DNA from: Candidatus Koribacter versatilis Ellin345
GTDB taxonomy: Bacteria; Acidobacteriota; Terriglobia; Terriglobales; Acidobacteriaceae
DNA: 64,000 nucleotides
NCBI RefSeq assembly: GCF_000014005.1
Contig: NC_008009.1
Location: forward strand, 2,356,001-2,420,000
Reading direction: 5' to 3'
Numbering within the stretch: position 1 is the first letter of the stretch; each line of letters begins with the position of its first letter. This document shows, piece after piece, positions 13,164 through 24,060 of the stretch. Under the pieces are notes generated by a model that saw only the letters and a program-made list of their open reading frames with translations, searched no databases and had not been told where the DNA came from. The position numbers and the translations under genes were made by a program.

Positions 13164-15712
13164 ACTTCAAGCTCCCTGAAATGTCGCTGGTGCTGCTCAT
13201 TGGGCCGTCGGGCTGCGGGAAGTCCACGTTCGCACGCAAGCACTTCAAGCCCACCGAAGTCATCTCGTCCGACTTCTGCCGCGGCCTCGTCTCTGACGAT
13301 GAAAACGATCAGTCCGCGACAAAAGAGGCGTTTGACCTGTTGCACTACATCCTGCGCAAGCGCCTTGCGGCTGGCCGCCTCACGGTTGTGGACGCAACCA
13401 ACGTACAGCCGGAGTCGCGCAAGCCGCTGATCGAAATCGCGAAGGAATATCACCTCTTTACGGCGGCAATTGCTTTCAACTTCGACGAGAAAATCTGCCA
13501 GGATCGCAACCGAAACCGGCCGGACCGTCAGTTTGGCGCGCACGTCGTCCGCAACCAGGCGCAGCAGATGCGCCGCGGTCTGCGCGGCTTGGAACGCGAA
13601 GGCATTCGTTATCTCACGATTCTCTCGTCGTCGGACGACGCGGACAATCTCACCATCGAGCGCCAGCCGCTGTGGACGAACAAGAAGCACGAGCACGGAC
13701 CGTTCGACGTCATTGGCGACATCCACGGCTGTGCGGACGAACTCGAAGATCTCCTCGCGCAGCTTGGCTATCGCATCGAGCGTGAGAACGGCGACTACCG
13801 CATCACGCCACCTGAGGGCCGTCGTGCCATCTTTCTTGGCGACCTCGTCGACCGTGGCCCGCGCATTCCCGATGTGCTCAAAATCGTAATGAGCATGGTG
13901 AATGCAGGCACCGCGTTTTGCGTTCCCGGCAATCATGATACGAAGCTGCTGCGCTGGCTCGGTGGCAAAGACGTCAAGATCGCTCACGGCTTGGCGGACA
14001 CAATTCAACAGTTTGAAGCTGAGCCGCCAGAGTTCAAGAAGACAGTTGCGAAGTTCCTTGACTCGCTAATCGGCCACTACGTGCTCGACGGGGGCAAACT
14101 CGTGGTTGCGCACGCCGGCATGAAGGAAAGCATGCAAGGACGCAGCTCCGGCGCGGTGCGTTCGTTCGCGCTCTTCGGCGAAACCACTGGCGAGACCGAC
14201 GAATTCGGCCTGCCCGTCCGCTTTGACTGGGCCTCGGAATATCGCGGCAGCGCCATGGTCGTGTACGGGCACACCCCGGTTCCGCAGCCGCAGTGGCTGA
14301 ACAACACCATCAACATCGATACCGGCTGCGTCTTCGGCGGCGGCCTGACAGCGCTTCGATATCCGGAAAAAGAGCTGGTCTCAGTCCCGGCGCGCAAGAC
14401 GTACTATGCATCTCCGAAGCCCTTCCTACCGAAGGAAGACGCGCCTACGCTCAGCCAGCAGCACCAGCTTGACGATGTGCTCGACATCGAGGACGTCATC
14501 GGCAAACGCGTGATTGCCACCCGGCTGCACGGTAACATCACCATTCGCGAAGAGAACGCCATCGCTGCGCTTGAAGTGATGAGCCGCTTTGCGACCAACC
14601 CGAAGTGGCTGATCTATCTGCCGCCAACCATGTCGCCCTCCGAGACGACCAAGCAGCCCAATCTGCTCGAGCATCCTGCGGAGGCCTTCGAGTACTTTCG
14701 GCGCGAGGGTGTGGCGAAGGTCGTCTGCGAGCAGAAGCACATGGGCTCGCGCGCGGTGGTCATCGTTTGCCGCGACCGCGATGCCGCGGTGCGCCGCTTT
14801 GGTATCACGCAGGATGAAATCGGAGTCTGCTACACCCGCACCGGGCGCCGTTTCTTCAACGACGATCGCCTTGAACGCGATTTTCTTGCGCGGGTGCAGT
14901 GTGCGGTGGAAAAGGCTCGGCTGTGGACGGAGCTGAAGACCGACTGGGTCTGCCTCGACTGCGAGCTGATGCCGTGGTCGTCGAAAGCACAGGAGCTTCT
15001 TGTCCGGCAATACGCTCCCACGGGCGCGGCAGGACGGGCGGCGCTGCGTGAGACCGTCGCCGCCCTGCGAACAGCGTCAAACCGGGTTGCGGAGATCGAG
15101 CCGCTCATTGCCGAATACGACCAGCGTCTGACGATGGTCGGCCAATACGTTGACGCCTATCGCCGCTACTGCTGGCCCGTGCACTCGCTGCTTGATCTCA
15201 AACTCGCGCCGTTCCACCTACTCGCCGCGGAAGGCCAGGTCTTTACCAACCGCGACCATGTTTGGCACATGGAGACGCTCGCCCGCTTGTGCGCGCAGGA
15301 TCACGAACTGCTTCTCGCCACCCCCTACAGAGTCATCGATCTTGCCGAACGCGCCAGCGAGGAAGAAGGGATTGCCTGGTGGGAGGAACTGACCGCTGCC
15401 GGAGGCGAGGGCATGGTGGTCAAGCCGGTCGAGTTCATTGCGCGCGGCAAGCATCTTGTTCAGCCAGCGGTAAAGTGCCGCGGACGCGAATACCTGCGCA
15501 TCATTTATGGGCCGGAATACACCGCGCCGGAACACCTTGAGCGCCTTCGCTCGCGCGGTTTGGGACGGAAACGCTCGCTGGCGCTGCGGGAGTTCTCGTT
15601 GGGAGTGGAGGCGTTGCAGCGCTTTGCCGAGCACGAACCGCTGCGCCGGGTGCATGAGTGTGTTTTCGGCGTGCTGGCGCTGGAGAGTGAACCGGTCGAT
15701 CCACGGCTCTAG
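13160..15712 (+). CDS. pnkp: Polynucleotide kinase-phosphatase-ligase Pnkp
   Basis: An 850-residue trifunctional RNA-end-healing and sealing enzyme. Order of domains: 5'-kinase with P-loop GPSGCGKST (residues 15-23); binuclear metallophosphoesterase 2',3'-phosphatase with GDIHGC (about 186), GDLVDRGP, GNHD and GHTP; and a C-terminal ligase-like adenylyltransferase with the nucleophile Lys in EQKHMGSR (about 527) and CLDCEL. Length matches family members near 850-870. The ATG overlaps the hen1 stop (ATGA). In studied bacteria Pnkp and Hen1 form a complex that repairs tRNA cut by ribotoxins. All three active sites look intact. Confidence 0.96.
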   Translation: MNFKLPEMSLVLLIGPSGCGKSTFARKHFKPTEVISSDFCRGLVSDDENDQSATKEAFDLLHYILRKRLAAGRLTVVDATNVQPESRKPLIEIAKEYHLFTAAIAFNFDEKICQDRNRNRPDRQFGAHVVRNQAQQMRRGLRGLEREGIRYLTILSSSDDADNLTIERQPLWTNKKHEHGPFDVIGDIHGCADELEDLLAQLGYRIERENGDYRITPPEGRRAIFLGDLVDRGPRIPDVLKIVMSMVNAGTAFCVPGNHDTKLLRWLGGKDVKIAHGLADTIQQFEAEPPEFKKTVAKFLDSLIGHYVLDGGKLVVAHAGMKESMQGRSSGAVRSFALFGETTGETDEFGLPVRFDWASEYRGSAMVVYGHTPVPQPQWLNNTINIDTGCVFGGGLTALRYPEKELVSVPARKTYYASPKPFLPKEDAPTLSQQHQLDDVLDIEDVIGKRVIATRLHGNITIREENAIAALEVMSRFATNPKWLIYLPPTMSPSETTKQPNLLEHPAEAFEYFRREGVAKVVCEQKHMGSRAVVIVCRDRDAAVRRFGITQDEIGVCYTRTGRRFFNDDRLERDFLARVQCAVEKARLWTELKTDWVCLDCELMPWSSKAQELLVRQYAPTGAAGRAALRETVAALRTASNRVAEIEPLIAEYDQRLTMVGQYVDAYRRYCWPVHSLLDLKLAPFHLLAAEGQVFTNRDHVWHMETLARLCAQDHELLLATPYRVIDLAERASEEEGIAWWEELTAAGGEGMVVKPVEFIARGKHLVQPAVKCRGREYLRIIYGPEYTAPEHLERLRSRGLGRKRSLALREFSLGVEALQRFAEHEPLRRVHECVFGVLALESEPVDPRL

Positions 15713-15830
15713 GGCCTTTGGCTCAGAATGGCACTTTTCGCGGCTTTTCGTTGCTATTGACCGCGTTTTCACGGTACGCTGTCGGCCATCTACTTTCATC
15801 GGCCCGCGGGCCCATCGCCGGAGGACTGCC

Positions 15831-16190
15831 ATGCAACTATCGCTTAGCACGCGCACCATCGAGGGCATCATTATTGTGGATTGTGCGGGTCGGCTGGTGT
15901 TTGGCGACGAGTCTGGTGCCCTGCGCGAAACTGTGAAAAAACTGATGCCCGCTTACAAGCAGATCGTCCTCAACATGAAGGGCGTGATGTACATCGATTC
16001 GGGCGGCCTCGGCACGCTGATCAGCCTCTATAGCTCGGTGCGCGCCGGCGGCGGCGAAATGAAGCTCGCTAGCCTCAGCGCCAAAACGCTTGAACTGCTC
16101 TCCATTACCAAGCTGCTGACCGTGTTCGATATTCGCGATACGGAGACAGACGCGGTGTTGTCGTTTGCGAAGTCGGCAGGAACGCACTAA
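15831..16190 (+). CDS. STAS-domain anti-sigma factor antagonist
   Basis: A 119-residue single STAS domain like SpoIIAA/RsbV. The site that is phosphorylated by a partner anti-sigma kinase is present: Ser in YIDSGGLGTL near residue 58. The start ATG at 15831 has CGGAGGA ahead; the longer frame overlaps pnkp and lacks homologous character. No anti-sigma kinase or sigma factor gene is adjacent, so the partner must be elsewhere. Likely part of a partner-switching stress or envelope-signalling pathway. Confidence 0.9.
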   Translation: MQLSLSTRTIEGIIIVDCAGRLVFGDESGALRETVKKLMPAYKQIVLNMKGVMYIDSGGLGTLISLYSSVRAGGGEMKLASLSAKTLELLSITKLLTVFDIRDTETDAVLSFAKSAGTH

Positions 16191-16204
16191 GGCATTTTCA
16201 AGAC

Positions 16205-16253
16205 GATAGGGTCCTTCGACTCCGCACGCTGGGCGGGCTCCGCTCAGGATGAA
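16205..16253. repeat. REP-like intergenic element, copy 1
   Basis: A ~49-bp sequence beginning GATAGGGTCCTTCGACTCCG and ending GCTCAGGATGAA. Closely related sequences lie at 25412-25460 and 33021-33070, always between genes. The three share the two ends and differ in the central GC-rich part. Confidence 0.6.
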
Positions 16254-16288
16254 AGAGCAGGAGGCGCGAGCATGCGACAATCGCTCTC

Positions 16289-16705
16289 ATGCTGAAAGTG
16301 AAGCGCCTCTCGCCACACGCCACTCTTCCTACCATCGGCCATCCCGGCGAAGATATCGGCTACGACCTTTACGCCTCCGAAGACCTGACAATTGCTGCGC
16401 GTGGCGCGGCGGGCGTTCCGACTGGGGTCGCCATTGAATTTGATCCTCCGGCAGGTGGCGTGGTGAAAACGCGCTCGGGCATGGCAAAGAAACGCCTGAT
16501 GTGCAATGCCGGTGTAATTGATGCCGGTTATCGGGGCGAGATCATCGTGCTGATGGAGAACCTTGGCGATCAGGAGTACGAGATCAAGCGCGGCGACAAG
16601 ATCGCACAGTTGCTCGAACATCCGTTCCTGGCGAAGGAAGTGGTTGAAGCCGAACTAACAGATGCGGCGCGTGGGGCGAAAGGGTTTGGATCCACAGGGA
16701 AATGA
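16289..16705 (+). CDS. dut: Deoxyuridine 5'-triphosphate nucleotidohydrolase
   Basis: A 138-residue trimeric dUTPase that hydrolyses dUTP to dUMP and pyrophosphate, keeping uracil out of DNA. All five motifs are visible: GYDLYA (motif 1), KTRSGMAKK (2), GVIDAGYRGEI (3, catalytic Asp), RGDKIAQLL (4) and the Gly-rich C-terminal arm GFGSTGK (5). Length is normal for the bacterial family. It is a stand-alone gene after the STAS gene and a REP-like element. Confidence 0.95.
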   Translation: MLKVKRLSPHATLPTIGHPGEDIGYDLYASEDLTIAARGAAGVPTGVAIEFDPPAGGVVKTRSGMAKKRLMCNAGVIDAGYRGEIIVLMENLGDQEYEIKRGDKIAQLLEHPFLAKEVVEAELTDAARGAKGFGSTGK

Positions 16706-16730
16706 AGATCGTTTTCGCCGCCCAGCGCAG

Positions 16731-16762
16731 AGAATTTGCTCTGAATTCTGTGTCTCCGTGGT
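16731..16762. repeat. Intergenic 'ccacggagacacaga'-type sequence
   Basis: On the minus strand this stretch reads ACCACGGAGACACAGA. A diverged relative (CACGGAGGTCACGAGG) is at 32118-32134. Short, and a repeat status rests on only two loosely similar copies here. Confidence 0.3.
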
Positions 16763-16765
16763 GAA

Positions 16766-17926
16766 CTAGATCTTTCCGAGTGCCTGCTCCAAATCCGCAA
16801 TAAGCTCTTCCGGTTCCTCCAACCCTATATACAGCCGCACGATGCGATGGCCATACTCCGAGCGTCCCTTCGCGTGGCTGAGGTCGTAATTGACGGCGAG
16901 GCTTGCGACTCCACCCCAGCTATATCCGATCTCGAAAAGCTCCAGTGCATTCACAAAAGCCTGCACCTGTTGCTTCGTGGGGCCGGACTTAAAGACGATC
17001 GAAAACAATCCCGCCGACCCAGTGAAGTCGCGCTCCCAGAACTCGTGGCCCGGACAGGAGGGAAGCGCGGGATGTAGCACGGTTTCGATTTCCGGTCGCG
17101 CTGCGAGCCATTGCGCAACCCTCAGGGCGGAACTTCCAATCTGCGCGAGGCGCACCCCGAGCGTCTTCATGCCGCGTAGTGCGAGCTGGCAATCATCAGG
17201 CGATGGGGCGCAGCCGAGCACCTGGTAGGTATTGCCGAGCTTTTCGTAGATCGCGCGGTCGCGAATAGTAATTGCGCCAAGAAGAACATCGCTGTGGCCA
17301 GCGACATATTTCGTGAGCGCCTGCATCTCGACGTCAACGCCGTGGTCGAAGGCCCGGAAAAAGATTCCAGACGACCAGGTGTTATCGAGCACTACCAGCG
17401 CGCCGCGGGCGTGCGCCGCTTTCGCGATTGCAGGAACATCTTGCACTTCCATCGTCAGTGAGCCGGGACTTTCGCACCAGACGAGACGCGTGTTGTCCTT
17501 GATCAACTCTGCGATTCCCGCGCCGATCAAGGGCGGATAAACCGTGACCTCCACGCCGAAGCGCTTGAGAACGGAATATGCCAACTTGCGATTGGGGCCA
17601 TAGATATTCTCGGGGATCAGGATGTGGTCACCCGCATTGAGCAGCGAGAGTTGGATGAGCGAAATCGCGCCCTGGCCTCCGGCGGTGATGATGGTGTGTT
17701 CGCCGTCTTCGAGCTCGCAGACGCGTGCTGCGAGTTCCAACGTCGTCGGCGTGCCGTAGAGGCCGTAGGTGTAGCCCACGCGATGCTGGTCCCACTGGTC
17801 CGTAACCGATTCAGCATCGGGGAAGAGCACGGTGGATCCGCGGTAGGTAGGAGTTACCAGCGAGCGGAATCCCTCCGGGGCATGGCTATCGCCGTGGATC
17901 AGCTTTGTCTTCCAACTCTTCTTCAT
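16766..17926 (-). CDS. metC: Cystathionine beta-lyase-like PLP enzyme
   Basis: A 386-residue PLP enzyme of the Cys/Met metabolism family (gamma family of fold type I). The Schiff-base lysine is in QALTKYVAGHSD (about residue 205); the phosphate-binding turn is AGGQGAISL, and LDNTWSSG holds the pyridine-binding Asp. The features SGIFFRAFDHGVDVEMQALTK and the WGG..SL segment near the C-terminus are closer to MetC (cystathionine beta-lyase) than to gamma-synthases. I set the start at ATG 17926 because the extended frame adds a non-homologous N-terminus. It makes homocysteine from cystathionine, next to two related enzymes on the opposite strand. Confidence 0.82.
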   Translation of the reverse strand: MKKSWKTKLIHGDSHAPEGFRSLVTPTYRGSTVLFPDAESVTDQWDQHRVGYTYGLYGTPTTLELAARVCELEDGEHTIITAGGQGAISLIQLSLLNAGDHILIPENIYGPNRKLAYSVLKRFGVEVTVYPPLIGAGIAELIKDNTRLVWCESPGSLTMEVQDVPAIAKAAHARGALVVLDNTWSSGIFFRAFDHGVDVEMQALTKYVAGHSDVLLGAITIRDRAIYEKLGNTYQVLGCAPSPDDCQLALRGMKTLGVRLAQIGSSALRVAQWLAARPEIETVLHPALPSCPGHEFWERDFTGSAGLFSIVFKSGPTKQQVQAFVNALELFEIGYSWGGVASLAVNYDLSHAKGRSEYGHRIVRLYIGLEEPEELIADLEQALGKI

Positions 17927-18037
17927 GGCGACAGTATAGAGAACTTGCGGCGAGAGGTTCCCGAACGCGGACATTGTCCAAACGGACACTTGCAAAGAGA
18001 ACCTCTGCCGAGAGAACATTATAGGTAGAGGTGTACC

Positions 18038-18334
18038 GTGAGACTCTCCCTTGGACTGTTGTTTGCGTTCTCGTTTTCAATGGTGGCTTGGGCGCAAGAG
18101 CCTTCGCCGACAAATGGTCTGGCTCAACCGGCAGCACAACCGAGTGGGGTGACTCAGACCGTCATTTCGCAAGGCACGGTGTATCAAGCTCCCGTGACGG
18201 CTCCGGTAATCACCCAAAGCGCGCCAGTCCAGCCGATTCCCGTGTCGCTTTCCGTGCCCATGTCGTCCATGCCGTCGCAACCACAGATAAGCATGCCAGT
18301 GGCGCAGATGTGCGGCTGCGGCATAAAACACTAA
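18038..18334 (+). CDS. Small exported protein with Cys-Gly-Cys C-terminus
   Basis: A 98-residue protein with GTG start. It has a signal peptide (hydrophobic run LGLLFAFSFSMVAWA, cleavage likely after AWAQ at about 20). The mature chain of about 78 residues is low-complexity, rich in Pro, Gln, Ser, Thr and Val, and ends in MCGCGIKH, a possible metal-binding or disulfide tail. Lies between the divergent metC-like gene and the sulfur amino acid leader. No family recognised. Confidence 0.6.
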   Translation: MRLSLGLLFAFSFSMVAWAQEPSPTNGLAQPAAQPSGVTQTVISQGTVYQAPVTAPVITQSAPVQPIPVSLSVPMSSMPSQPQISMPVAQMCGCGIKH

Positions 18335-18372
18335 GGTGTCGGGAAGCACGCTGTTCGTTCGTGGGGTTGTGC

Positions 18373-18402
18373 TTGCGGCCGTCATCGGGCCCCGTGTATA
18401 CT
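18373..18402 (+). promoter_or_regulatory. Candidate sigma-70 promoter for the sulfur amino acid operon
   Basis: TTGCGG at 18373-18378 and TATACT at 18397-18402 are 18 bp apart. Transcription would start near 18409, leaving a leader of about 200 nt before the GTG at 18609. Confidence 0.5.
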
Positions 18403-18438
18403 TCCTCAATCACATTTGAACGGACTTTGTCAGTGACG

Positions 18439-18510
18439 ATGCTACTCACTTCACGAATGTATATGGCCATGCGTCCCCCAGGCGGTCGCCGGCCAGCATC
18501 GGAAGTCTGA
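18439..18510 (+). CDS. Methionine-rich leader peptide
   Basis: A 23-codon frame too short for normal gene finding. It begins MLLTSRMYMAMRPP and ends at TGA 18508-18510, so four of the first eleven codons are Met (18439, 18457, 18463, 18469). It lies ~30 nt after a predicted transcription start and upstream of two methionine/cysteine-metabolism genes. Its later codons encode the 5' arm of an 11-bp inverted repeat (18475-18485). The Shine-Dalgarno is weak, and an in-frame GTG at 18433 is an alternative start. The role as an attenuation sensor is inference. Confidence 0.45.
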   Translation: MLLTSRMYMAMRPPGGRRPASEV

Positions 18511-18576
18511 GTACACCCACTCAATCTCCAATCTGGCAGCCGCCTGGGGGTCACCTAAGGCGGCCGAGTTGTTTTT
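18475..18576 (+). promoter_or_regulatory. Candidate attenuator with two exclusive hairpins
   Basis: Hairpin A pairs CCCCCAGGCGG (18475-18485) with CCGCCTGGGGG (18540-18550), 11 bp perfect. Hairpin B pairs GCCGCCT (18539-18545) with AGGCGGC (18558-18564), 7 bp, followed after four bases by TTGTTTTT (18569-18576), like an intrinsic terminator. Both need 18540-18545, so they cannot coexist. A third possible stem is CGATGCT (18437-18443) with AGCATCG (18495-18501), enclosing the Met codons. I found no match to SAM-I, SAM-II, SAM-IV or SAH riboswitch consensus as I recall them. Confidence 0.5.
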
Positions 18577-18608
18577 AGAGCCAAATCAGCCAGATACAGG
18601 AGATCGCA

Positions 18609-19811
18609 GTGCCTTCCGAAGACCTCGACATTTCCACTCTCGCCATTCGCGGCGGACGTTCGCTGGACTCTCATGCCAGCTCGATTTTGTTTCCGCTCTA
18701 CCAGACCAGCACGTTTGTTCATGACGCCGTTGGCGTGGACAAAGGGTTCAGCTATTCGCGGGTGTCGAATCCGACCGTAGATGCCCTGGAGAAAGCCATC
18801 GGCGTGCTGGAAGGAACGCCTCCCGCCGTTTGCTTCCGCACGGGCATGGCGGCGGTGACCACCTTGTTCCTATCGGTGCTGCGCGCGGGCGACCATGCGG
18901 TGCTTTCGGAAGTGATCTACGGCGGGACGATGCGGCTCTTCCGCGAGATCCTCGATCACCTGGGAATCACGGCTTCGTTCGTGGACACGTCGGACGCAGC
19001 CAACGTGGAGCGGGCGATCCGGCCAGAGACGAAGATCATCTTCATTGAAACACCGGGCAATCCGACGCTGAAGCTCACCGACATTGCAGCCGTGGCGGAG
19101 GTCGCTAAACGGCATTCCATCCTGCTCGCGGTGGACAACACATTCCTGACGTCGCTGCTGCAAAACGTCTTCGAACTCGGAGCCGACATATCGCTTCTCT
19201 CGACGACGAAGTACATTGATGGCCATAACGCGACGCTCGGTGGATCACTCGCGACGCACGACGAAAAGTTGCTGGAGCGGTTCCGATTGATACGTAAGAC
19301 CATAGGCACAACGCAAGCGCCCTTCGAAGCGTGGCTGACGTTGCAGGGAATGAAGACGCTGCCGGCTCGGTTGAAACTGCATTGCGAAAATGCGCAGATC
19401 ATCGCGGAGTGGCTGGAGGCACATCCTGCCGTCGCTCGCGTTTACTTCCCGGGGCTCGATTCGTGTGAACAGAAAGCTCTTGCGGACAAGCAACAGAACG
19501 CACCCGGCGGAATGATTGCTTTCGAACTGAAAGCCGGATTTGACGCCACGATTCGAGCTCTGAACCACGTGAAGCTGTGCTCGCGAGCGGAGAGCCTCGG
19601 CGGGCTCGAGACGCTGATTACGCATCCTTCGTCTACCACACATGCGGATGTTGAGCCTCAGGTGCGACGGGCGCTGGGGATTTCGGATGGGTTGGTACGA
19701 CTGTCCGTAGGATTGGAGGCCGCGCAAGACATCATTGCCGATCTCGAACAAGCATTTGAGGCGGCCGGGTGTTGTCCGGCATCGGAGGAGGTCCGCAATG
19801 AAGTTCGCTAG
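18609..19811 (+). CDS. Gamma-family PLP enzyme of Cys/Met metabolism (first of tandem pair)
   Basis: A 400-residue fold type I PLP enzyme. The Schiff-base Lys is in LLSTTKYIDGHN (about residue 205); YSRVSNPTVDALE near 55 supplies the neighbouring-subunit Tyr/Arg, and AVDNTFLTSL the pyridine-binding Asp. It most resembles cystathionine gamma-synthase/lyase and O-acyl-homoserine sulfhydrylases; motifs alone do not separate these reactions. GTG start with ACAGGAG ahead. It overlaps the second PLP gene by 14 nt, so the two are co-translated, and it follows the Met-rich leader. A plausible division of labour is transsulfuration versus direct sulfhydrylation. Confidence 0.85.
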   Translation: MPSEDLDISTLAIRGGRSLDSHASSILFPLYQTSTFVHDAVGVDKGFSYSRVSNPTVDALEKAIGVLEGTPPAVCFRTGMAAVTTLFLSVLRAGDHAVLSEVIYGGTMRLFREILDHLGITASFVDTSDAANVERAIRPETKIIFIETPGNPTLKLTDIAAVAEVAKRHSILLAVDNTFLTSLLQNVFELGADISLLSTTKYIDGHNATLGGSLATHDEKLLERFRLIRKTIGTTQAPFEAWLTLQGMKTLPARLKLHCENAQIIAEWLEAHPAVARVYFPGLDSCEQKALADKQQNAPGGMIAFELKAGFDATIRALNHVKLCSRAESLGGLETLITHPSSTTHADVEPQVRRALGISDGLVRLSVGLEAAQDIIADLEQAFEAAGCCPASEEVRNEVR

Positions 19812-20967
19812 CCGTCTCGTAAGTTTCGATCCCGCTCCGGGCGATCGCTATCGCCCCATCGCCACGCCGATATATCAGACGGCAACCTTTGAGCAGGAAC
19901 ACGCCGATGAATTCGGCGAATACGACTATTCGCGCAGCGGCAATCCCACGCGCACGGTGCTGGAAAAGCATCTGGCATCGCTGGAAAACGGGACCCGCGG
20001 CTTTTGCTTCTCGAGCGGCATGGCGGCGATAACCACCACGACCAAGCTTCTGCGCTCCGGCGACGACATTCTTGCCGACAGCGATCTCTACGGCGGAACC
20101 TGTCGTTTGTTTACCAAAGTCCTCGAGAAGACGGGTATTTCCGCGCGCTATGCCGACGCCGCGAATCTCGAGCAATTCGCGCAGCAGATCAGGCCGGAGA
20201 CGAAGCTGGTCTATGTCGAGACGCCGACGAATCCGCTGCTCCGCGTGCTCGACTTACGCAAGCTCGCCGAGATAGCTCACGCGAATGGCGCGATTCTGTG
20301 CGTGGACAACAGCACGATGTCGCCGTACCTGCAGAATCCCCTCGATCTTGGCGCGGACATAGTGCTGCATTCGGCGACGAAATATCTCGGCGGCCATCAT
20401 GATGTGACGGCTGGCGCGATCGTGGTGAAAGACGAGGAACTGGCGAAGCAGGTCTATTTCATCCAGAACGCGGAGGGCAATGGACTCTCGCCGTTCGATT
20501 GCTTCCTGCTGCTGCGCGGCATTAAGACCCTAAAGCTGCGCGTGGATTGCCAGCAGCGCAATGCGCTTACGATCGCGAAATTTCTGGCGTCGCATCCAGA
20601 CGTGAAGAAGGTCTATTATCCGGGACTTGCCGATCATCCGGGATACGAATTGCAGCGGTCGCAGGCGCGCGGATCCGGAGGCGTATTGAGTTTTACGACT
20701 GGCTCGGTGGAAGTTTCGAAAACGGTCGCGGAACTGACGAAGCTTTTCCGGATTACCGTGAGCTTCGGCAGTGTGAATTCGTCCATCAGCTTGCCGGGGA
20801 ACATGTCGCATGCGAGCGTTCCGCCGCAGGTCTTGGCGCAACGTGATCTTCCGGCAGACTTGGTGCGTATCTCGGTCGGGATTGAAGACGAAGAGGACCT
20901 GATTGCCGATCTCGATCAAGCGTTGCAAGTCGCGACGGGGAAGACATTGGCGGCAAGTACGCGGTGA
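19798..20967 (+). CDS. Gamma-family PLP enzyme of Cys/Met metabolism (second of tandem pair)
   Basis: A 389-residue paralogue of the preceding enzyme. Hallmarks: PIYQTATFEQ and YDYSRSGNPTRTVLE near the N-terminus, SSGMAA phosphate-binding turn, CVDNSTMSPYLQNP and the Schiff-base Lys in LHSATKYLGGHHDV (about residue 195). The SGNPTR and SATKYLGGH forms are typical of cystathionine gamma-synthase/gamma-lyase. ATG at 19798 with an excellent GGAGGAGG site inside the end of the upstream gene. The operon ends at tandem hairpins just downstream. Which of the tandem pair is the synthase is not decidable by eye. Confidence 0.85.
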   Translation: MKFASRLVSFDPAPGDRYRPIATPIYQTATFEQEHADEFGEYDYSRSGNPTRTVLEKHLASLENGTRGFCFSSGMAAITTTTKLLRSGDDILADSDLYGGTCRLFTKVLEKTGISARYADAANLEQFAQQIRPETKLVYVETPTNPLLRVLDLRKLAEIAHANGAILCVDNSTMSPYLQNPLDLGADIVLHSATKYLGGHHDVTAGAIVVKDEELAKQVYFIQNAEGNGLSPFDCFLLLRGIKTLKLRVDCQQRNALTIAKFLASHPDVKKVYYPGLADHPGYELQRSQARGSGGVLSFTTGSVEVSKTVAELTKLFRITVSFGSVNSSISLPGNMSHASVPPQVLAQRDLPADLVRISVGIEDEEDLIADLDQALQVATGKTLAASTR

Positions 20968-20968
20968 G

Positions 20969-20992
20969 CAGGGCTGAAGCCCTGTTCTTTTT
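20969..20992 (+). terminator. Rho-independent terminator of the PLP-enzyme operon
   Basis: CAGGGCT-GA-AGCCCTG stem of 7 bp followed by TTCTTTTT, immediately after the stop codon. Confidence 0.75.
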
Positions 20993-21003
20993 AGCCCTTC
21001 AGC

Positions 21004-21027
21004 GGCCCGACTAAAGTCGGGCCTTTT
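21004..21027 (+). terminator. Second, tandem terminator hairpin
   Basis: GGCCCGAC and GTCGGGCC form a perfect 8-bp stem with a TAAA loop and TTTT tail. It stands between the convergent PLP operon and the DUF1684 gene and may serve either direction. Confidence 0.6.
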
Positions 21028-21031
21028 CACT

Positions 21032-21955
21032 TCAGTCGTGGTACCGCTTTTCACCGGCGCGAATCGGTACTTGCAGCTTGTTGATCGGTAGCGGTAACGG
21101 ACAGGTAGCGTACTGGGTGAAGGCGCACGGCGGGTTCTCAAGCCGGTTGAAGTCGAGCCACACTTCGCCTGGTTTCGACAGGCTGTTGCTCGGCAACTCG
21201 GAGTAGAGAGACCGCGCTGCTCCGTAGGTTTCTGTTTGGCTGGTGGTATCGCGCAGGACGAAGAAGAGTTCTTTGGCGTCGGGCTTTTCGAGCAAAGGCT
21301 CGAGCTTCAATGTCTGCCCATTCAGTGTGAACTCGACGAGGCCGGGAGCGGCCATGGTCTGATCAATTCCGATAACGCTCGGGATCGTTCGCGTCTGCGG
21401 ACTGTCGTAAGGAATGTACTTCGCGTGGACGCGATAAGCAGGATCCGGCGCGTACCAATGCAGTCCCTTGAAATCGACCCGCGCTCGAGCAGCCGAATCC
21501 TTTATTCGCACCCCGTAGCGGTCTCCTCGATGAATGATCGTGATGAAGAGAGTGCCGACCGTCAGCTTCGAAGGCTGTGGGTCGGTGTCTGCAAATAGAG
21601 GAACGGCTGTGACGGGAGGAGTTCCGTTAACGGTGAGGTCTTGAGCGAAGCCGGCCGACGGAGGCTGAAGCAGCAGGGAATTGTTGTCGAGGCGAGTGAC
21701 CCCCAGCTGTGCGGGCGATGATGCAGGCAGTTTGATGTCGTTGGTGCCATCGGAACCAAGTTTGTTGTCCCCAGGCTTCAGCCAATCCAAGCCTACAACC
21801 GCCAGCCAGCCATCGGGCGCGGACAACTTCTGCGCCCGCTTTGCGCGCCATTGCAGCAGGTCATGCCGCCATGCATTCGGAGCCGAGGCCTTGGGCGTTT
21901 GAGCGACCGCCGGAACGAAAAGGGTACAGATCAAAGCAAACGTAAGCAGCCTCAT
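21032..21955 (-). CDS. DUF1684 family exported protein
   Basis: A 307-residue protein with signal peptide (MRLLTFALICTLFVPAVAQ). It matches DUF1684: the N-terminal WRAKRAQKLSAPDGWLAVVGL followed by WLKPGDNKLGS, a middle HWYAPDPAYRVHAKY, and the C-terminal signature LDFNRLENPPCAFTQYATC ending RAGEKRYHD. The family is found widely in bacteria and has no assigned reaction; the conserved NPPCAF..YATCPLPP motif suggests an active or binding site. Single gene, convergent with the PLP operon. Confidence 0.85.
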   Translation of the reverse strand: MRLLTFALICTLFVPAVAQTPKASAPNAWRHDLLQWRAKRAQKLSAPDGWLAVVGLDWLKPGDNKLGSDGTNDIKLPASSPAQLGVTRLDNNSLLLQPPSAGFAQDLTVNGTPPVTAVPLFADTDPQPSKLTVGTLFITIIHRGDRYGVRIKDSAARARVDFKGLHWYAPDPAYRVHAKYIPYDSPQTRTIPSVIGIDQTMAAPGLVEFTLNGQTLKLEPLLEKPDAKELFFVLRDTTSQTETYGAARSLYSELPSNSLSKPGEVWLDFNRLENPPCAFTQYATCPLPLPINKLQVPIRAGEKRYHD

Positions 21956-22029
21956 AGCGAAAACATTATCTCCGGTTCCGAGATAAAACGCGCGCTACGG
22001 TTTGCGGCTGAGGCCGTTTATGAACTCCA

Positions 22030-23424
22030 TCAATGGCGCGGAGCTTCGTGAAGTACGACATGGTGTTTTCCATCCGCGTCGAGTGTCCAAACTTCCAGCG
22101 CAAACGAATCGCTGCTTTGGGCAGGATCGACGGCATGCTTCAACGGCCCGAAGGTCTGCGCAATGCCGACGCCGCCGGGTCCGGCAGTGAAGACCACAAG
22201 CTCCTGGGAACTCGATGCGCCGGTGAGCATGAGGCGATACCCCTGCTTCGGAGTGAGGCCTGTGGCCGCGATCTGCAGGTTATCAATCGGGCCGATCGGA
22301 TTCACGACTACGCTGGCGTGAGTCGACGGACTCGCTGACGAAGCCGAGACCATCTCGATGTGCAGAGCGTCGGTTGCAGTGCTGAATGGCTTCAGACTCG
22401 CTGTTCCTGCATCTGAGGAGGCGGCGCCGGGAACGTAGACTAGCGCCTGGGGCAGTTGCCCTACTGGAATCGTCGCAATGACGCGGTTCGTGGCAGTGTC
22501 GATGGCCTGGACGGCGTCGCCGTTCTCGAGGCCAATGTAAACGCGCTTTCCATCGCCCGAGCCCCAAATGCCGTGCGGCAAGTCTCCAACTTGAATTGTG
22601 CTTACCAGCTTCGGTTCCGCGCCCGATCCGCGCTGGTAGACAAGCACCTCATTCTTCCCACCTACGGTGACGTAGGCGAATTTTCCTTTGCTGTTTTCGA
22701 TCAGGGTTACGTGGTTGGTGATCGGTCCGGTCTCGAGAGTCGCGATGGTTTTAAACGGAGGCTGCGCGCTGATGATCTGGGTTTTGCCAGTATCTTTCAG
22801 GGTGAACCACACCTCGTCTTGATCAACGGCCAGATTTGGCGAGAACGGGCTGACCTGGGGAATTCTAGCGATGACGCGATAGGTGGAGGTGTCGATAACA
22901 TCGAGCTCCGGCGTGAAACTGGAGGGGACGAAAGCAAGCTTGCCGTCGGGACGGAACAGGACCATCCCAGGTCCATTCGCGGTTTCAATGCGGCGGACTT
23001 CCTTCATTGCGATCGGATCGATGACGCTGACGTAGTTTTCTCCACGTACCGCCACCCATAGTTCTTTGCCGTCCGAGGTAAAGAATCCTTCGTGCGGCGA
23101 CCGTCCGACATAGACCGTGCCCTTGACGGTGTTGCTCTGCGTGTCAATCAACGTAACGGCATTCGATCCGATCGAGATGACGTCGATCGTCTTGTGGTCG
23201 GGCGAAAAGCCCAACCCGTGCACCAGAAGCTGGCCTCGGTAGAGCGGACTGATAGCCGTGGGCACGTTTTCGCCCAGCCGAATCTCGCCAAGAAGCCGGT
23301 TCGCTACGGGATCGATCACGCTAACGGTGTTGGAGGTTTGGTCCGCGGTGTAGACGCGGTCGACGGATTGCGCCGCGCCGCACAAGCTTAAGCCAAGCAG
23401 CGCGGGTATCAGTGCGATGCGCAT
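22030..23424 (-). CDS. Exported YVTN-type beta-propeller protein
   Basis: A 464-residue secreted beta-propeller. The signal peptide is MRIALIPALLGLSLCGAAQS. About seven ~40-residue repeats follow, each ending in a form of NTVSVID or NAVTLIDT (for example TSNTVSVIDPVANRLLGEI), the YVTN/surface-layer repeat. The last ~100 residues after the propeller form a separate beta domain. Start placed at ATG 23424; the longer frame adds 71 Arg-rich residues with no homologous character. Its start overlaps the end of the DUF305 gene by 16 bp, so they are co-expressed. Likely a binding or scaffold protein rather than an enzyme. Confidence 0.82.
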   Translation of the reverse strand: MRIALIPALLGLSLCGAAQSVDRVYTADQTSNTVSVIDPVANRLLGEIRLGENVPTAISPLYRGQLLVHGLGFSPDHKTIDVISIGSNAVTLIDTQSNTVKGTVYVGRSPHEGFFTSDGKELWVAVRGENYVSVIDPIAMKEVRRIETANGPGMVLFRPDGKLAFVPSSFTPELDVIDTSTYRVIARIPQVSPFSPNLAVDQDEVWFTLKDTGKTQIISAQPPFKTIATLETGPITNHVTLIENSKGKFAYVTVGGKNEVLVYQRGSGAEPKLVSTIQVGDLPHGIWGSGDGKRVYIGLENGDAVQAIDTATNRVIATIPVGQLPQALVYVPGAASSDAGTASLKPFSTATDALHIEMVSASSASPSTHASVVVNPIGPIDNLQIAATGLTPKQGYRLMLTGASSSQELVVFTAGPGGVGIAQTFGPLKHAVDPAQSSDSFALEVWTLDADGKHHVVLHEAPRH

Positions 23425-23795
23425 GGTGCTTCTCCTGTTTTTAAGGATTGTCGCTTGCCCAACCAAAGATTCATGGCGTCGATCTCGGATTGTTGATCCA
23501 CGAGGATTTCCTGTGCGAGTCGACGCATCACTGGGTCCGTTCCATAACGCAGCTCGGCTTTCGCCATATCGATAGCGCCGCGGTGATGAGGAAGCATCAT
23601 CGCCGCAAAATCGCGGTCTGTGTCGCCGGTCATGCAAACCGATGCCATGTCTTGGTCCATGGTGGACATACTGCGTGTCATCTCGTCCATGAAGCGGTGG
23701 TCGGCGACCGACATCTGGGCGGCCGCGCCTAACGCGAACCCAGCGATCAGCAGGGCAGAAATAAGCGCAATGCGAATTGGAAAGGAAGGGGTCAC
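23409..23795 (-). CDS. DUF305 domain protein
   Basis: A 128-residue exported protein. After a signal peptide (IRIALISALLIAGFALGAAAQ) comes the DUF305 ferritin-like helical domain: DRDFAAMMLPHHRGAIDMA with its His-His pair, then LAQEILVDQQSEIDAMNLW. The family is often found with copper or metal-handling genes. I chose the GTG at 23795, which has AGGAC ahead and gives a clean signal peptide; a TTG at 23849 would lengthen it. It overlaps the beta-propeller gene downstream. Confidence 0.8.
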   Translation of the reverse strand: MTPSFPIRIALISALLIAGFALGAAAQMSVADHRFMDEMTRSMSTMDQDMASVCMTGDTDRDFAAMMLPHHRGAIDMAKAELRYGTDPVMRRLAQEILVDQQSEIDAMNLWLGKRQSLKTGEAPCASH

Positions 23796-23907
23796 AAGTG
23801 TCCTGGATGACGATGCTAGCGTTTGGATCCGCTGACCGCTAGAGACCAAGGTATAGGGTGCCGCGGGAGGGAGGAGAAGACAACGGTGCGGAAGATGGTA
23901 AGAAGTC

Positions 23908-23997
23908 TGGCGGAGAGGGAGGGATTTGAACCCCCGATACCCTTTCAGGTATGGCCGCTTTCGAGGCGGCTCGTTTCAACCACTCACGCACCTCTCC
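23908..23997 (-). tRNA. tRNA-Ser (anticodon CGA)
   Basis: A 90-nt class II tRNA. Acceptor stem GGAGAGG/CCTCTCC, discriminator G and an encoded CCA (23908-23910). The anticodon arm GCCGC-CTCGAAA-GCGGC has anticodon CGA, reading UCG. A long variable arm follows, as in serine tRNAs, then a T-arm with TTCGAAT. Confidence 0.95.
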
Positions 23998-24060
23998 GCG
24001 CGCAGTTGTACACGGCCGATGTTGCCGTTTCTCTAGTCTAGCAAAAGATGAAGTGAATCG

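Follow-up and report, generated by a model that had tools for sequence, protein, structure and literature searches.

A probable methionine-codon attenuator ahead of methionine biosynthesis genes in Acidobacteriaceae

SAM riboswitches and repressors are known regulators of methionine synthesis. Attenuation through a leader peptide has been reported for Trp, His, Thr, Leu, Ile/Val, Phe and Cys. A short Met-rich reading frame ahead of two Cys/Met PLP enzyme genes of Candidatus Koribacter versatilis Ellin345 raises the question of whether Met codons can also serve as the regulatory codons of a leader. In the open literature searched, which covers only part of the literature, no Met-codon attenuator is described. 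The locus was analysed within a stretch of 64,000 nucleotides, here called the window, and the features below lie on its + strand unless stated. The first gene (PLP1, 18609-19811) encodes a cystathionine gamma-synthase-like Cys/Met PLP enzyme that reached no cut-off among the NCBIfam equivalogs. The second (PLP2, 19792-20967) encodes a cystathionine beta-lyase and scores above the TIGR01329 cut-off. A third Cys/Met PLP enzyme, a cystathionine beta-lyase above the NF005456 cut-off, is encoded upstream on the opposite strand (16766-18019, -).

The leader frame and its distribution

The frame from ATG 18439 to TGA 18508-18510 encodes MLLTSRMYMAMRPPGGRRPASEV, 23 codons with Met at positions 1, 7, 9 and 11, exactly as read in the preliminary description. 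The internal Met codons start at 18457 (M7), 18463 (M9) and 18469 (M11). An in-frame GTG at 18433, which gives 25 codons, lines up with the ATG or GTG at which the leaders of close orthologs begin and is possibly the real leader start. No clear Shine-Dalgarno (SD) sequence was seen ahead of the leader start. The string ATGNNNATGNNNATG occurs twice, compared with 0.45 occurrences expected per 64 kb. A promoter-like pair proposed earlier was not supported. TTGCGG at 18373 matches a -35 element at 3/6 positions, TATACT (18397-18402) is a possible but weak -10 element, the two together match at 8/12, and a consensus scan found no promoter. In some relatives (e.g. G078, G177, G131, G158 and G194) a small hairpin lies directly 5' of the leader start codon; its arms vary between genomes yet stay complementary (CCCGTTACCAGCGGG, TCCGGTGCAAGAACCGGA and similar).

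The best orthologs of PLP1 in other genera have the same leader in the same place. A DNA pattern was run over 200 family genomes, and an unbiased protein search was then carried out over 398 family genomes. The protein search identified 63 PLP1 orthologs, whose upstream DNA was inspected: 37 have the leader, 5 have hairpins but no Met codons, and 21 have neither. Five further loci bring the number of leaders to 42; they include two ahead of PLP1 orthologs broken by contig ends (G194, G223) and two second copies ahead of a PLP2 ortholog (G064b, G122b). The 42 loci belong to 14 genera of one family, Acidobacteriaceae as judged from the named hits. Among the named carriers are Acidobacteriaceae bacterium KBS 83, Granulicella aggregans M8UP14, Granulicella sp. 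L60 and Acidobacteria bacterium AB60.

The leader lies upstream of orthologs of the two Cys/Met PLP genes of the window in 41/42 loci. In the remaining locus (G062) it stands directly before an aspartokinase/homoserine dehydrogenase-like frame. This frame has a PLP1-like beginning followed by aspartokinase/homoserine dehydrogenase, as an in-frame deletion of PLP1 would produce. In G069 the gene order is PLP1, aspartokinase/homoserine dehydrogenase, PLP2, which makes it an operon for the methionine pathway. In the two second copies, the SD-sequestering helix covers a short frame overlapping the PLP2 start (TTGA/ATGA), which suggests translational coupling. A weaker second leader (31 bits), in which Met11 is replaced by GTG, was seen upstream of a second PLP1-like gene in G319 (C1:2154957-2155092).

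A covariance model found the element in 44/398 family genomes, four of them with weak matches only (<25 bits). Outside the family, across the class, its matches scored 22-24 bits, which is within noise. Pattern matches in G079/G178 (RLPIAM) and G176 were not upstream of methionine genes and were taken as chance, and no non-acidobacterial pattern match among the genome contigs exceeded 11 bits with model R1.

Conservation of the frame was examined in the 40 testable leaders by asking for an ATG or GTG 24-45 nt upstream of Met9 and an open frame through Met9+30. The Met frame was open in 40/40 leaders and each other frame in 0/40. Starts occur at three different in-frame distances, TGA, TAA and TAG are all used as stops, and the G407 leader has a 3-nt deletion that keeps the frame. 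At least two of the three internal Met codons are present in every one of the 42 loci. M7 is retained in 37/42, M9 in 41/42 and M11 in 42/42, the last count being partly due to selection because the search pattern favours M11. Only the Met residues are near-invariant in the leader peptide; the remaining ones either differ among leaders or overlap RNA arms. The frame and Met codons, whose presence in relatives the preliminary description had made a test of its reading, are thus conserved, and by sequence comparison this conservation exceeds chance.

Hairpins are kept and Met codons lost in G139, G249, G296, G314 and G329. Either Met9 and Met11 are gone (e.g. RMPRAI) or the entire frame is. These five species retain a terminator-like hairpin and U-tract about 190-120 nt upstream of the PLP1 ortholog. 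Their leaders speak against the Met-codon reading, and may represent a decayed attenuator or one of changed specificity.

Alternative helices between the leader and the first gene

An 11-bp inverted repeat noted earlier (18475-18485 with 18540-18550) is exact, and one further G-U pair extends it. Its arms are here called C (18475-18486) and D (18539-18550). C starts 3 nt past the last Met codon and would form the 5' arm of the ON helix. The competing 7-bp stem, D (18539-18545) with E (18558-18564), is likewise exact; D can therefore pair with C (ON) or with E (OFF). The U-rich tract TTGTTTTT (18569-18576) is present 3' of D:E, but the loop of 12 nt and the 4 nt that separate the stem from the U-run kept a consensus scan from calling a textbook terminator.

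The RNA from 18420 to 18608 is more stable than its shuffles (z = -3.2). Its minimum free energy fold has two domains, which add two helices to those of the preliminary description. The first is a hairpin across the leader frame, A:B (18440-18515). Arm A (18440-18468) is the 5' half of the frame, including M7 and M9, arm B (18491-18515) is its end with the stop codon, and arm C sits within the apical loop region. In the second domain D:E is nested inside a helix between an anti-SD arm (18524-18537; ATCTCC 18524-18529 and ATCTGGC 18531-18537) and its partner (18589-18604; GCCAGAT 18589-18595 and GGAGAT 18599-18604). The partner includes the SD of the first gene, AGGAG 18598-18602, so this anti-SD:SD helix masks the SD in the predicted free fold.

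Conservation of pairing was assessed with a partner-swap test, in which native arm pairs were compared with arms exchanged between genera in 2000 permutations. None of the 2000 was as good as native for A:B or for anti-SD:SD. The numbers were 3/2000 for B with the anti-SD arm, 4/2000 for C:D and 11/2000 for D:E, compared with 221, 532 and 1532 of 2000 for control pairings. The C:D covariation score was 0.265, versus 0.177 when shuffled (0/500) and at most 0.123 when slid, and alignment pair counts revealed compensatory changes at four pairs. The G122b copy ahead of PLP2 maintains C:D despite reading CCCTAGCCGGTG:CACCGGCTAGGG. Both stems listed in the preliminary description thus covary, as its attenuator reading called for.

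The anti-SD:SD helix is present in nearly all loci, and native arms beat foreign arms in 14/15 groups, G267 being the exception. A D:E stem of at least 6 bp followed by at least 6 T in 12 nt was found in only 25/42 loci; the Granulicella group is among those that lack the U-tailed hairpin. The near-universal SD helix and the patchy terminator argue that control acts mainly on translation initiation and that most genera add termination to it. The comparisons establish, at the level of sequence, a conserved frame with its Met codons, alternative helices and an operon context. The attenuator interpretation offered earlier therefore stands with regard to the frame, the Met codons and the two stems, but its output needs revision, since the main one appears to be SD sequestration and the terminator is confined to 25/42 loci.

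Ribosome position and the proposed switch

The following mechanism is proposed. A ribosome would translate the leader of 23-25 codons. When Met-tRNA is plentiful, it would clear Met7, Met9 and Met11, cover the C arm and reach the stop codon over the B arm. With C covered, the D:E terminator (in most clades) would form and the anti-SD arm would pair with the SD of the first methionine gene, which is the OFF state. When Met-tRNA is scarce, the ribosome would wait at Met7-Met9, directly upstream of C and atop the A arm. The waiting ribosome would block A:B and C would pair with D. The C:D loop would then enclose the anti-SD arm, itself partly paired with B, leaving the SD open and no terminator, the ON state. 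The signal would presumably be Met-tRNA charging.

The ribosome-position logic was computed by folding the RNA 3' of a ribosome set at successive codons. In most relatives predicted C:D pairing is highest with the A site at Met7-Met9 and is abolished from Met11 on, where anti-SD:SD and D:E return. Slow reading of the Met codons would therefore be the ON condition, the Met codons being the last stretch where a waiting ribosome leaves C free. An earlier caveat, that stalling at the last Met codons would cover the 18475 arm, applies in part. Met7 or Met9 in the A site leaves C free, but Met11 covers it unless the footprint extends about 9 nt rather than 12 nt past the A site; with a 12-nt footprint a Met11 stall is predicted to be OFF.

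In the window itself the full-length computed switch is weak. Calculated ON structures lie 8.3 kcal/mol above OFF in free RNA and 0-1.6 kcal/mol above at Met7/Met9 stalls. A stall thus shifts the balance by about 7-8 kcal/mol toward ON and at equilibrium brings ON level with or slightly above OFF. The C:D probability at these stalls is 0.1-0.6, depending on the footprint. In an untranslated leader ending just after D, folding prefers C:D over A:B. Since C:D forms readily on such a transcript, timing would favour ON under a stall; by the same token, OFF without translation is not secure.

Taken together, the conserved features of the leader and the scan across relatives make a ribosome-mediated attenuator with methionine as the regulatory codon very likely. 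An arresting nascent peptide is an unlikely alternative. Here methionine or SAM would stall the ribosome after R-M-x-M-A-M, covering C and forcing OFF, much as TnaC and plant CGS1 are arrest leaders. This reading was considered and, following the position scan, kept only as a rival. Conservation is highest in the codons adjoining C, with Arg preceding M7 and Ala separating M9 from M11, and the scan does give OFF once a ribosome stands just beyond M11. However, positions next to the Met codons are variable (Y/P/F/T/L/R/H; A/G/S), some leaders have lost the Arg, and the C-terminus of the peptide is not conserved. Both the CGA and the GG that are conserved belong to the A:B stem, and RNA pairing accounts for them. 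A ribosome at the stop codon is likewise OFF, and arrest would therefore add nothing in most clades.

It is quite improbable that the leader senses translation rate in general, any slow-down upstream of C (a rare CGA codon, antibiotics or several amino acids) giving ON with no specificity for Met. In the folding scan any ribosome stop before C permits C:D in many relatives, and the CGA preceding M7 is nearly invariant, but all 42 loci, which lie ahead of methionine genes, conserve two to three Met codons immediately 5' of C. Very improbable is a SAM-type metabolite riboswitch in which A:B and C:D form an H-type pseudoknot and the frame is incidental: C does lie within the A:B loop, a loop stretch is strongly conserved and the targets are methionine genes, but the frame is open in every testable leader and no other is, its three start positions, three stop codons and 3-nt deletion all respect the frame, the leader has no Rfam match, and C:D frees the SD, which is the wrong sign for repression by SAM or Met.

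Relation to known leaders

Rfam gave no match up to E = 10 within 14000-24000, no match in the window at the gathering threshold and no T-box match at the leader. The S-box (RF00162) is absent from the whole genome, and no SAM riboswitch was found at gathering upstream of the leaderless orthologs. Like SAM riboswitches (S-box, SAM-II and others), the Met leader would place methionine biosynthesis genes under RNA control; unlike them, it is translated and unmatched in Rfam. In erm-type translational attenuators a stalled leader ribosome frees a sequestered SD in response to a macrolide. The Met leader would free its SD in the same way, with Met-tRNA supply as the presumed signal.

A ribosome-mediated attenuator is defined by codons for the amino acid of the operon in a short ORF, competing helices, and stalling that selects the antiterminator (PMC1183508). 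The Met leader shares a short ORF with product amino acid codons and competing helices with the trp, his, thr, leu, ilv and pheA leaders of proteobacteria. It differs from these in its Met codons, in the sequestered SD of its first gene and in its phylum, Acidobacteriota. Furthermore, the antiterminator arm C lies inside the loop of the leader hairpin, whereas in proteobacterial attenuators it is the 3' arm of that hairpin. Mycobacteria and other actinobacteria have Cys leader peptides upstream of sulfur amino acid genes, whose Cys codons lie close to the stop and for which conserved hairpins are not reported; nor was conserved RNA structure reported upstream of actinobacterial methionine operons (PMC1262725). 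These leaders and the present one both lie ahead of sulfur amino acid genes outside proteobacteria, but only the latter combines Met codons with conserved alternative helices. Almost no attenuator predicted in Acidobacteria had an assigned function (PMC2965389). The kind of control, ribosome-mediated attenuation, is very probably a known one, and the amino acid and the layout appear new within the literature searched.

These results suggest that this is probably the first Met-codon attenuator, an Acidobacteriaceae-wide switch that reads the charging of elongator Met-tRNA and acts chiefly on translation initiation by sequestering an SD, some genera having gained or lost a terminator. Natural variants, in which Met7 or Met9 is lost, the terminator is lost, the leader has decayed or a second copy precedes the other gene, make its logic directly testable. 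If the reading is true, the amino acid sensed is the one that also starts every leader, and these cells can sense elongator Met-tRNA separately from initiation.
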